In this document: piece after piece, positions 13,644-47,132 of the stretch
Numbering within the stretch: the stretch's first letter is position 1
Layout of the letters: each line of letters starts with the position of its first letter
Made by a program: the position numbers and the translations under genes
Notes under the pieces: generated by a model
Database searches by the model: none
Seen by the model: the letters and a program-made list of their open reading frames with translations, nothing else
Told to the model about the DNA's origin: nothing
Assembly (NCBI GenBank): GCA_947589545.1
Contig: CANQBA010000026.1
Coordinates: 1 to 47,946, forward strand
Reading direction: 5' to 3'
Origin: an uncultured Oscillospiraceae bacterium
GTDB taxonomy: Bacteria > Bacillota > Clostridia > Oscillospirales > Oscillospiraceae
DNA length: 47,946 bases

Positions 13644-14260
13644 AAGCGCTTCTTCGAAAGGATATTTATCTGATGCTCACCCAATTCAGGGCGCTTTTCC
13701 TGGTGATGGTGGTTTTCAGCGCCATCCCCGGGGGCCTTTTGGTGCCCTTCACCTTTCTCTACGCCATGATGCTCACCTCCGTGTCGCTGATGAGCGTGGA
13801 CGAGCAGACCCAGTGGGAGGCCCTGGCCCTGATGCTCCCCTACTCCCGGCGGCAGCTGGTGGTGGCGAAATACGTGATGGGCTGGCTGGGCATCGCCGTG
13901 GCGTTTGTTATTTCCGCGGCGCTCCAGGGCCTCTGGGCGGTGACGGGCATAGATGAGCTGCAAAAGGGCCTCTTTGAGGCCATGTGCCTGTACGCCGCCG
14001 TCGCCGGCGTGGGGCTCGCCCTGATGCTCCCCGTGAATTTCCGCTTCGGCTACGCCAAGGGGCGGATCATGACCATCCTGTTTGCCGGGATCATCGGCGG
14101 CGCCGTAGGCGCGTCCATGGGCACGGGCGAGGCCGCCTTCACCTTCCTGTCCGCCGCCGCCCGCGTCCATCCTGCCGTCTATCTGCTCCTGTCCGCCGCC
14201 CTGTGCGCGGCCACTATCCCCCTCTCCGTGACGGGGTACAGAAAACGGGTGGAAAAATGA
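13640..14260 (+). CDS. ABC-2 type permease
   Basis: 206 residues with about six hydrophobic segments and the short N-terminal MKALLRKDIYLM start of ABC2_membrane_5-like permeases, including the DEQTQWEALALMLPYSRRQLVVAKY loop typical of that family (about residues 54-78). It forms the membrane part for the ATPase encoded just before it. It ends the operon 4 bp before a hairpin that also belongs to the facing RNA gene. Confidence 0.85.
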   Translation: MKALLRKDIYLMLTQFRALFLVMVVFSAIPGGLLVPFTFLYAMMLTSVSLMSVDEQTQWEALALMLPYSRRQLVVAKYVMGWLGIAVAFVISAALQGLWAVTGIDELQKGLFEAMCLYAAVAGVGLALMLPVNFRFGYAKGRIMTILFAGIIGGAVGASMGTGEAAFTFLSAAARVHPAVYLLLSAALCAATIPLSVTGYRKRVEK

Positions 14261-14264
14261 CAAA

Positions 14265-14292
14265 ACAGCCTCCGATTTTTGTCGGAGGCTGT
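14265..14292. terminator. Shared terminator hairpin at the 3' end of the RNA and the permease operon
   Basis: An 11-bp perfect stem (ACAGCCTCCGA with its complement) with a 6-nt loop. The minus strand continues TTTTGTCATTTTT, which suits the RNA; the plus strand has no T run. Confidence 0.75.
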
Positions 14293-14320
14293 TGACATAA
14301 AGTGAAGTGGGTCGTATAAT
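14292..14320 (+). promoter_or_regulatory. Second consensus promoter facing the RNA on the plus strand
   Basis: TTGACA at 14292-14297 and TATAAT at 14315-14320 with a 17-bp spacer. It would make an antisense transcript across the RNA locus that ends at the hairpin at 14515-14540. The -10 lies in a near-palindrome (CGTATAATACG), so a chance match to part of the RNA's own fold is possible. Confidence 0.5.
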
Positions 14321-14499
14321 ACGTTTCATTGGCGTGGATATAGACTTACGCTGAGGATAACTAAAGACAAGGCCGCCACTGGTCAAGAGTGACGGTCTGT
14401 CTTTTGCTATGATAGAAATATCGTAGCCTGAGACCCCATCGCACTTAGGATCAGGCCGCTGGTGAAGGTCACCGCCCACGGCGACCCACTTCTATTGTT

Positions 14500-14528
14500 A
14501 TTATACCCGCTTGCCGCTTGCCTGTCAA
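14500..14528 (-). promoter_or_regulatory. Consensus promoter of the structured RNA
   Basis: TTGACA at 14528-14523 and TATAAT at 14505-14500 on the minus strand, spacer exactly 17 bp: a perfect sigmaA consensus. Its -35 lies inside the facing terminator hairpin at 14515-14540. Confidence 0.75.
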
Positions 14529-14540
14529 GCGGTTTTTTTC
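14515..14540 (+). terminator. Strong plus-strand terminator
   Basis: CCGCTTG, CCTGT loop, CAAGCGG, then seven T residues. The T run overlaps the stop region of the convergent SLH gene, and no plus-strand gene ends here, so it would end only the antisense transcript of the RNA locus. Confidence 0.7.
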
Positions 14541-15582
14541 ATTCTTCCCCGTACCTCGTCAGCATATAGTCCGCGCTCTCCACCGTCTCCCGGGGAAGCT
14601 CGCGGCCCCAGTGGACGCGGCTGTTGTAGTTGCCCTCGGCCACGACGACGGAGCTCTCGCGCACCTCCAGGACGACGACGGAGTGGGTGTCCCCGTTCAC
14701 ACGCAGGATGTCCCCCACGCGCACGTCCTTAAGGCTCACGGGCCGCACCCTCCTGGCCGGCGCCTCCCCGAAGGCCGCGTCGCTGAGCAGGAACGCGAAG
14801 CCCGCGCAGCCGTACCCCACGTTAAAGAGGCCGCCCCGCCAGGCGTAGGAATTTTCGTTCGTCCAGCGCGTCCCCTCCGGGTATCTGGCCTTCATAGCGA
14901 TAACGGCCTCGTAGGCGGCCCTCTGCCGCTCATCCGTGTCCGGCGCCGGGGCCGGGAGTTCTCCCCCCAGCTCCACGCGGCTCATGCGCGTCAGCACCGT
15001 GGCGGCCTCGGCCCGGGTCATGCTCTCCGCGCCCCGGAACGTCCCCCGCCCGTCACAGCCCTCCATGACGCCCAGAGCGTACACCGTCCGGATGGCCGCG
15101 CGCTCCTCACCGCCGTACCTGTCCAGATCCGGCGCGTCCACAGCCGCCAGCTCCCGCTCCCCCGGCATCCGCGCTCCGGCGGTCTCCAGGGCGTTCCGAA
15201 CAGTCACGGCCAGGGCCGTCCTGGTCATCTCCGCGTCCCCGCCGGCCCCCAGATCCAGAGCCGTGCCGTCAAAGATCCCTTTTTTGGCGCATGCTTCCAG
15301 ATACGGCTCATACCAGACCCGGCCGCTCCCCCGCTCCGGCAGCTCCACCGGGAACAGCAGGCGCAGGAGCATGGCGGCAAATTCGCCGTAGGTGACCTGC
15401 TTCTCCGGCCGAAAGAGGCCGTCGCCGCAGCCCTCCACCCAGCCGCTTTCCGCCGCCGCGTCTATGTACCCGGCGGCCCAGTGCTCCGCCGGCACGTCCC
15501 GGAACCGGGCGGCCAGCGCCGTCACGGAGACGGGCAGCGCCACAGCGGTGGCCAACAGGCAGGAAATAATTCGTTTTTTCAT
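14539..15582 (-). CDS. S-layer-homology protein with a cysteine-peptidase-like (CHAP/NlpC) domain
   Basis: 347 residues. Signal peptide 1-25 (VTALAA), then three SLH repeats (about 27-80, 85-140 and 155-205; FRDVPAEHWAAGYI, VTYGEFAAMLLR, MTRAEAATVLTRM). The C-terminal domain (about 220-345) has C259 in GYGCAGFAF and H300 in GDTHSVVVLEV, the spacing and context of a papain-like CHAP or NlpC fold. A third polar residue is not certain. The SLH repeats would anchor it to secondary cell-wall polymer, and the C-terminal domain may cut peptidoglycan peptides. It lies 77 bp downstream of asnB. Its ribosome site is buried in a hairpin, described separately. Confidence 0.82.
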   Translation of the reverse strand: MKKRIISCLLATAVALPVSVTALAARFRDVPAEHWAAGYIDAAAESGWVEGCGDGLFRPEKQVTYGEFAAMLLRLLFPVELPERGSGRVWYEPYLEACAKKGIFDGTALDLGAGGDAEMTRTALAVTVRNALETAGARMPGERELAAVDAPDLDRYGGEERAAIRTVYALGVMEGCDGRGTFRGAESMTRAEAATVLTRMSRVELGGELPAPAPDTDERQRAAYEAVIAMKARYPEGTRWTNENSYAWRGGLFNVGYGCAGFAFLLSDAAFGEAPARRVRPVSLKDVRVGDILRVNGDTHSVVVLEVRESSVVVAEGNYNSRVHWGRELPRETVESADYMLTRYGEE

Positions 15583-45376: not shown

Positions 45377-47132
45377 TTTCGGCGCCCTCCTCCCCGCTCA
45401 TGAGCTTTGTGTAGAAGGGGCTCACGTCCCGAAGCTCCTCGGGCGCACCCTCCGCCGTGACCTTACCGGCCTCCATGACCACCACATGGCCGGCGGCACG
45501 CACCAGCGTGGGCTGGTGGGCGATCATCACCACGGTGGCCTTCCCCTCCAGGGACTTTACTGCCTCGGCCACCTCCTGGGCGGACAGGAGGTCGAGGCTG
45601 GCGGTGGGTTCATCCAGAATAAGCACGTCCGCGCGGGTCAAAATGGCCCTGGCCACGGAGATCTTCTGCCGCTGGCCGCCGGAGAGCTTGGAGCCGAACT
45701 GCCCCACCTCATGCTCCAGGCCGTCGGGACAGCTCTTGATGAAGTCCTCCAGGCGCACAAGCCGCGCCGCCTCCAGGATCTCCCCGTCCGTCACCTCCCG
45801 GCGGATGCCGTAGGTGATGTTCTCCCGGATGGTGCCGGAGATCATGGGCGCTGCCTGCGGGACGTAGGCGATGCGGGCCCGCCAGGCGTCCAGGCTGGTC
45901 TCCGCGAGCTCCTGCCCGCCCACTAAAATTCTACCCTCAGAGGGATCATACACTCGCTCTAAGAGCTTCAGCGCCGTGGACTTGCCCGCCCCGCTGAAGC
46001 CCACCAGGGCCGTGGCCCGGTTTTTGGGGATGCTGAAGGTCACCCCGTCCAGGGCCTTTTTTTCGCCGTAGCTGAAGGACACGTTGTCAAAGAGGATGTC
46101 CCCGGCCTCCACGATGTCCCTGACGTAGGGCTCTACCCCCTCCTCCGGCTCGTAGAGCACCTCGGAGATACGGTTGAGCTGTCCCTGGATGGACTTCACC
46201 GACTCCCACTGGCCGCCAAGGCCAGAGGCAAAGTTGAGAAGCGTCCCGGCGTAGATATAGAAGGTATACCATCCGGCGGCGTCCACGCTGTGGTCATTTA
46301 GCAGCTTGATGCCCATGGTGATAATCACCACCTCCGGCAGGAGCCCCACCACAGTGGACACAACGCCACGGGCAAAATCGAGACCGATCACGTTCCTGTC
46401 GGCCTTGTAGCTGTCGTCGATGACCTTCTTGCCGCGCATGGCCTCGCTTTTTTGCATGTTGAAGGCCTTGACGATGGGGAGGCTCGCCACCAGCTCGCTC
46501 AAGTAATCCGTAAGCCCGGAGAGGCGGTACTTGGCAGAGTTCTGGAACCGCATGTTGAGCCGTCCGGCCACGAAGTTGATGAGCAGGAAGAGGGGCACGA
46601 ACCCAAGGAGGATAAAGGACGCCCGCAGGCTGATGCCGCTCATCTCGTTGATGGTCAGGATCAGCATGTAGACCGAGGAGGCGATGCCCAGGATTACGTC
46701 GATGATAAAGGCGTTCAGGCTGTCCGCGTCCACGGTAATGCGGCTTAAGAGGGAGCTGGCGGAGACCTTGTCGTAGTAGGCTGGCTTCACGTCCAAAATC
46801 TTCCGCCACAGGGCGTTGCGCAGGTTCCTGTTGGTCTTGTAGCGGAAGATATGATTGAAGTAGAGCTCCACCTGCACCAGCACCGTGCTCAGAAGCTCCG
46901 CGCCGATGAACATGGAGACGGTTTTCACGCTCACGTCCCCGGTGAAGAAGTTGGCGTTGAGCTGGGGGATCTTCACCGCGAAAAGGGACCATATCGCCGT
47001 CAGGGCTATGTAGATGAGCAGGGTCCCGTAAGGGATGTGGGCCACCCGGCAGGTGTGGAAGAAGCGCCCCCAGATCCCCTGCTTTTGTACCGCGCCCGCG
47101 TCCACGGGGGCGGTCTTTGTTTTGACTGCCAT
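45369..47132 (-). CDS. ABC exporter half-transporter (membrane plus ATPase)
   Basis: 587 residues. Type IV exporter fold: six membrane helices (about 35-310) fused to an ATPase domain with Walker A GFSGAGKST at 378-386, signature LSGGQRQK, Walker B LILDEPTASLD and the H-loop IAHQPT. It should pair with the adjacent half as a heterodimer, the usual form of such gene pairs in Firmicutes. Substrate unknown. Start at ATG 47132, 8 nt after AAGGAG; a GTG three codons upstream is too close to the ribosome site. Confidence 0.93.
   Translation of the reverse strand: MAVKTKTAPVDAGAVQKQGIWGRFFHTCRVAHIPYGTLLIYIALTAIWSLFAVKIPQLNANFFTGDVSVKTVSMFIGAELLSTVLVQVELYFNHIFRYKTNRNLRNALWRKILDVKPAYYDKVSASSLLSRITVDADSLNAFIIDVILGIASSVYMLILTINEMSGISLRASFILLGFVPLFLLINFVAGRLNMRFQNSAKYRLSGLTDYLSELVASLPIVKAFNMQKSEAMRGKKVIDDSYKADRNVIGLDFARGVVSTVVGLLPEVVIITMGIKLLNDHSVDAAGWYTFYIYAGTLLNFASGLGGQWESVKSIQGQLNRISEVLYEPEEGVEPYVRDIVEAGDILFDNVSFSYGEKKALDGVTFSIPKNRATALVGFSGAGKSTALKLLERVYDPSEGRILVGGQELAETSLDAWRARIAYVPQAAPMISGTIRENITYGIRREVTDGEILEAARLVRLEDFIKSCPDGLEHEVGQFGSKLSGGQRQKISVARAILTRADVLILDEPTASLDLLSAQEVAEAVKSLEGKATVVMIAHQPTLVRAAGHVVVMEAGKVTAEGAPEELRDVSPFYTKLMSGEEGAENA

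Follow-up and report, generated by a model that had tools for sequence, protein, structure and literature searches.

A predicted RNA with a perfect promoter opposite a truncated peptide gene in an Oscillospiraceae genome, probably the orphaned antisense half of a type I toxin-antitoxin-like module

The toxin mRNAs of the hok/sok and aapA/isoA systems, as these are generally described, bury their Shine-Dalgarno (SD) sequence and pair their 5′ and 3′ regions over a long distance, and both properties are also predicted for the units analyzed here. A second point of comparison is the Fst/par locus of pAD1, for which passages of PMC7472228 describe convergent promoters, a short peptide-encoding mRNA in which the 5′ end and the SD are sequestered, and a small antisense RNA, with a hairpin terminator in the overlap; the units described below share this general layout. 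They differ from Fst/par in having a hairpin over the end of the open reading frame (ORF), and where par has direct repeats they have outer inverted repeats predicted to tie the mRNA ends together. The passage of PMC8309996 that deals with Fst calls it a helical membrane peptide, whereas a beta-hairpin is predicted for the peptide here. Section 2 of that article gives all the membrane type I toxins it lists an alpha-helical transmembrane domain (a table legend in the same article mentions beta-sheet marks), and the predicted beta-hairpin would depart from the rule of section 2. The peptide is also unlike the hydrophobic helical type I toxins in its mean hydrophobicity, which is near zero in seven members.

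The units further resemble Ibs/Sib and Zor/Orz, multi-copy loci whose antisense RNAs recognize their targets by short regions. Target recognition domains of the Sib antisense RNAs of E. coli are described in a section of PMC4147584, and the V1 recognition region of the Orz antisense RNA is given as 3 nt in the relevant part of PMC3919570, compared to a divergent segment of about 26 nt here. The peptides and the lineages are different in the two cases.

The window analyzed in this study is a stretch of 47,946 nt from an uncultured Oscillospiraceae bacterium (contig CANQBA010000026.1 of assembly GCA_947589545.1). A promoter scan of positions 13900-14900 returned two promoter-like sites, where shuffled sequences averaged 0.2. 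The first, on the minus strand, is the perfect promoter that a sequence-only reading of this locus had pointed out (TTGACA-17-TATAAT, 12/12, 14528-14500). It is of the sigma-70 type and is predicted to drive an RNA with putative ends at 14494 and 14264, about 230 nt long if it reaches a distal terminator-like stem of 12 bp with a T-rich tail (14293-14264), the terminator of that reading. The 11-bp pairing between the two ends that it had also claimed is exact, joining a 5′ arm at 14482-14492 to a 3′ arm at 14304-14314. The minus strand folds with a minimum free energy of -93 kcal/mol (z -7.34), a value equaled or bettered by 0 of 200 shuffles; the plus strand folded alone is less striking (z -3.26).

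The second site, missed by the sequence-only reading, is an equally perfect promoter on the plus strand (TTGACA-17-TATAAT, 12/12, 14292-14320) that faces the first. A plus-strand terminator-like stem at 14513-14533 overlaps the minus promoter, and the plus promoter likewise overlaps the terminator-like stem of the minus strand. Together, the second 12/12 promoter and this stem suggest that both strands are set up for transcription. The 3′ arm of the closing stem sits in the spacer of the plus promoter, and thus outside the expected plus transcript.

Directly downstream of the plus promoter lies the remnant of a small peptide gene (14321-14392, plus strand; profile match E 2.6e-8), without a ribosome-binding site or start codon; the only in-frame remainder is TFHWRGYRLTLRITKDKAATGQE followed by a stop codon. 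About 109 nt directly upstream of the remnant are missing from the window and present in two related loci, L008 and L009, where the stretch measures 109. The earlier claim that the unit has no ORF is therefore true of the minus strand, which carries no plausible gene (a mechanical frame of 341 aa starts at 14479 and runs back over a permease gene), and not of the plus strand, which carries the 3′ end of this peptide gene. A structured, promoter-driven minus-strand RNA is supported at the level of sequence and has relatives in which the structure is conserved, while its description as an orphan of unknown kind gives way to that of an antisense RNA over a peptide gene.

Compared to canonical units, the remnant is read through the hairpin over its end in another frame, ending in TATGQE rather than NRHSAK. 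The core of this hairpin, CCGCCAC...GTGACGG (14373-14395), is kept despite the changed peptide frame, which points to selection on the RNA. One of its inner positions is a C.A mismatch on the plus strand and a G.U pair on the minus strand. Next to it lies a copy-specific, variable segment (14402-14449), which is alike in L008 and L009 and unlike in a third relative, L014.

In L008, L009, L014 and a fourth relative, L003, extra bases right after the plus promoter provide a ribosome-binding site and the beginning of a 33-codon ORF (e.g. MLRSILPLSITFHWRGYRFTLRITKDKAATGQE). The distal terminator-like stem is found in L008 and L009 too, and in altered forms in L003 and L014. As to covariation among homologues, which the sequence-only reading had raised, the closing stem has compensatory changes in L003 (GAAAAGGGTCG/CGACCCTTTTC) and minus-strand G.U pairs in L008, L009 and L014. 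In units of this genus type the outer 11-bp stem fits the minus RNA only, and its maintenance in all four relatives argues for a full-length minus RNA, made by read-through, at these loci.

By DNA search, similarity to the unit was found in 9 of 34 genomes of the genus, including the source genome, although in two of the 9 it extended over 42 bases only. A covariance model of the antisense half (R1) gave 42 matches in 15 of the 34 genomes, again including the source genome. Two matches on the opposite strand over other matches were dropped, leaving 40, and two more (G325:C25 and G321:C60) were judged false, having neither ORF nor promoter, which leaves 38 accepted units. A profile of the peptide built from 16 sequences detected it in 65 of 300 genomes and 37 of 106 genera of a family-level sample (E up to 0.01). 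In a class-level sample the matches were 3 of 245, the source genome and two others (L096 and L097) that were discarded because they lack the architecture. A phylum-level sample gave 5 of 348, including the source genome (E up to 0.001); three of the four others keep the SD and the facing promoters, and the fourth (G857) has no peptide-side promoter of 9 or more. Four loci in two genomes (L222, L223, L225 and L226 in G881 and G992) form a divergent branch outside the family (e.g. MPIRITFHIGNFTITIIVKRMHKKNRHSAQ); they share the two-promoter layout, and their stop codon within the hairpin is TAG or TAA.

Units are often multiple: the profile matches six times in each of four genomes, and several of the copies stand in tandem. 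The source genome itself has a second, intact-looking copy with a GTG start (G000:C3:62797-62877); near it, on the minus strand of L132 (10-248), is a T-box-like match of 66.4 bits, under the gathering score of 93. The peptide also occurs in the phage contig MT835905 (E 8e-6), where the antisense-side promoter scores 11 and none on the peptide side reaches 10, and at four places of a large Vescimonas replicon (E 7e-4), the best of which was examined; the PLSDB table, incomplete by its own description, lists no gene over the unit at this single Vescimonas fastidiosa place. Weaker matches came from a further phage entry (E 0.02) and from Microviridae (one record, E 8). A phage or plasmid origin was considered and rejected, the peptide being present in this one phage contig and this one large replicon. 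Among the titles and abstract openings listed by searches of open-licence PMC papers, none described the peptide family, and strings from the peptide matched no paper there.

The plus-strand ORF of intact units mostly encodes 26-33 aa, and in most of the 93 units listed it is preceded by an SD match of 5 or 6 out of 6. Across 91 ORF cores (415 non-independent pairs, with RNA-level constraint possibly contributing), dN/dS was 0.19 in frame, while the two shifted frames gave 1.13 and 2.97; this is the coding constraint expected of the peptide gene in a type I toxin-antitoxin system. The peptides are cationic (net charge +3 to +5 in the seven members). A single-sequence AlphaFold model of one 33-aa member, the L024 peptide, has strands at residues 8-14 and 17-23, with a mean pLDDT of 72 that rises to 90 over residues 11-20, and predicts an amphipathic beta-hairpin. 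With sets of three and five members, no Pfam or NCBIfam family, Fst and Ldr included, was matched at its cut-off, and PHROG matches had E values of 0.033 or weaker.

To compare the two promoters, we used 88 units with both flanks available; shuffled flanks never scored above 10. On the antisense side the score was 12/12 in 58 units, 11 in 21 and 10 in 4 (at least 10 in 83, and 9 or less in the remaining 5 of this peptide-based set), vs. 12/12 in 8, 11 in 36 and 10 in 19 on the peptide side (at least 10 in 63). Unit by unit, the antisense promoter was the stronger in 60, equal in 20 and the weaker in 8.

The RNA structures were examined in 73 canonical units, all chosen because their antisense promoter scores 10/12 or more. 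Consensus structures are alike on both strands (-81.3 for the mRNA and -74.0 for the antisense RNA). In the 72 of the 73 that were folded, the SD had a mean unpaired probability of 0.038, and a long-distance stem was predicted in the mRNA of 69. We considered the 3′ arm of the mRNA as a control of SD exposure and rejected it, since folding gave 0.038 with the arm and 0.034 without. Because an A.C mismatch on the mRNA strand is a G.U pair on the antisense strand, these non-canonical pairs can tell which strand folds. Among pairs present in both folds of the long-distance stem and the SD hairpin, the mRNA strand had 162 G.U vs. 70 A.C (summed by hand), and this excess suggests that the mRNA is the favored folded molecule in these two elements. 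The hairpin at the end of the ORF has one position that is a C.A mismatch in the mRNA, and hence a G.U pair in the antisense RNA, in 73/73 units, and its remaining pairs (12 G.U, 14 A.C) favor neither strand; in three units beyond the 73 (L048, L100 and L105) the hairpin differs in sequence. A hairpin was recognized in 80 of 93 units, and in these the run that follows it has on average 4.8 T in 8 on the antisense side, compared to 3.7 on the mRNA side. The richer antisense run would fit a proximal antisense terminator, though the tails are short.

The peptide half of the unit has been lost repeatedly. A peptide gene was counted as intact if its ORF had the core motif and its SD matched at 4 or more positions; by this rule, 29 of the 38 accepted genus units look intact and 9 are broken. 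Five are truncated (the window copy, G117:C1:182985, G319:C2, G318:C39 and G322:C9) and four carry an insertion in the ORF (one in G317, two in G117 and G313:C54). The antisense promoter scores at least 11/12 in 38/38 units, four of which were checked separately because the model start was misplaced. It should be noted that units lacking the antisense half could not be seen in this search, since the model was built on that half.

In L010 (G317:C1, about 46160-46560), the peptide gene is interrupted by some 390 nt with inverted ends that, on visual inspection, look like the acceptor end and T-arm of a tRNA or tmRNA; ARAGORN found no such gene in L010, and the insertion is possibly a MITE derived from such an end. 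In L058, L061 and L210 (G117:C1, G117:C5 and G313:C54), the ORF contains a short element with ends like TACTAATAT.../...ATATTAGTA, which looks like a MITE family. Outside the genus, one of two tandem units (L059/L044, G395:C1:501544) has apparently lost its start codon, with both promoters at 11/12, and is a further broken peptide gene.

We think it probable that the RNA on the minus strand belongs to a type I toxin-antitoxin-like module as its antisense RNA, and that the window copy is an orphaned antitoxin-like RNA. The peptide need not be a toxin: the same coding and promoter evidence, together with a hydrophobicity that is not strong, fits a regulatory or membrane-associated microprotein whose dose is tuned by the antisense RNA. 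We consider this rather unlikely. The 9 of 38 units in which a broken peptide half is accompanied by a retained antisense promoter are more typical of addiction-like modules, as are the tandem and multiple copies and the divergent antisense segments.

The divergence lies in the variable segment, which separates the hairpin from the 3′ arm and is about 26 nt long and 65% A+T. A recognizable segment of 15-40 nt was present in 98 of 131 units, which provided 12 same-genome pairs with a core identity of at least 0.90. Segment identity was 0.48-0.62 in nine of these pairs and complete in the other three; the sequences are related, so that counts of pairs and units are not independent events. For comparison, the median over all unit pairs is 0.48 and the 95th percentile 0.60 (0.45 and 0.56 for shuffled segments). 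The nine pairs thus come close to the divergence of unrelated units, being slightly more identical. The segment flanks are 92-100% identical in four same-genome pairs, and in a tandem pair on a single contig (G395) the core is 0.98 identical, the 3′ arm 1.00 and the segment 0.58. Judged by sequence, the segment behaves as a specificity tag would. The segment diverges as well in the five between-genome pairs whose core reaches 0.90 (0.46-0.64), which suggests that its fast evolution is general and not necessarily driven by paralogy. Some segments are conserved, namely those of G095 and G163 (1.0 at a core identity of 0.85-0.86) and, in the genus type, of G311 and G325:58495 (0.91 at 0.89); the two G325 copies have a segment identity of 0.65 at a core of 0.91.

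In the type I toxin-antitoxin-like module that we favor, an intact unit would produce a plus-strand mRNA for the cationic, putatively toxic peptide, with its SD hidden in a small hairpin and its 5′ end tied to its 3′ region. The convergent antisense RNA, usually transcribed from the stronger promoter, would be complementary to the 3′ part of the mRNA, or to the whole of it upon read-through. The two RNAs would form a duplex, with copies told apart by the variable segment, and pairing would repress the peptide by a block of translation or by RNase III cleavage. In the window, loss of the roughly 109 nt with the ribosome-binding site and the peptide start would have left the antisense RNA behind, under its perfect promoter.

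Alternatively, the minus RNA could be a structured riboregulator in its own right, acting in trans by way of its variable segment, with the peptide mRNA as a by-product or as one target among others. The flanking of a variable stretch of about 26 nt by conserved, structured parts would suit such a role, as would the closing stem of the genus type and the persistence of antisense-only units, two of which lie beside an intact unit (G318:C39 and G322:C9). We nevertheless find this improbable, as the segment falls within the overlap between mRNA and antisense RNA, and a 20-mer from the window segment had no second match with up to 3 mismatches in its own genome (one segment in one genome).

A known RNA family, such as raiA, 6S, tmRNA or SRP RNA, could be suspected from the compact fold, the end pairing and the strong promoter, and can be dismissed with near certainty, being contradicted by Rfam 15 (no family at its gathering threshold in the window, and no match of gathering score on the unit in 12 related loci) and by ARAGORN (no tRNA or tmRNA in the window). 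Over positions 14100-14650, relaxing the cut-off to E 10 gave four Rfam matches, none of them relevant. The sequence-only reading was right to set aside 6S, tmRNA and SRP RNA; its suggestion of a raiA motif fails, raiA being absent from these four matches as well.

A broader version of the toxin-antitoxin interpretation is speculative, and we hold it doubtful as a whole. It would make these units a new class of type I-like modules of the Oscillospiraceae, with cationic beta-hairpin peptides and, where sense and antisense RNAs overlap, a hypervariable 'barcode' of about 26 nt. Some diversifying process would replace the barcode as a block between otherwise near-identical copies, so that every copy has an antisense RNA of its own; barcoded RNAs left orphaned, such as that of the window, would persist and may silence incoming or neighboring copies with the same barcode.

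If the type I-like interpretation is correct, there are unannotated toxin-antitoxin-like loci in many gut bacteria of a single family, and the fold of their peptide may differ from that of the known membrane type I toxins. The copies of the unit would then constitute a natural set for studying the specificity of antisense RNAs.
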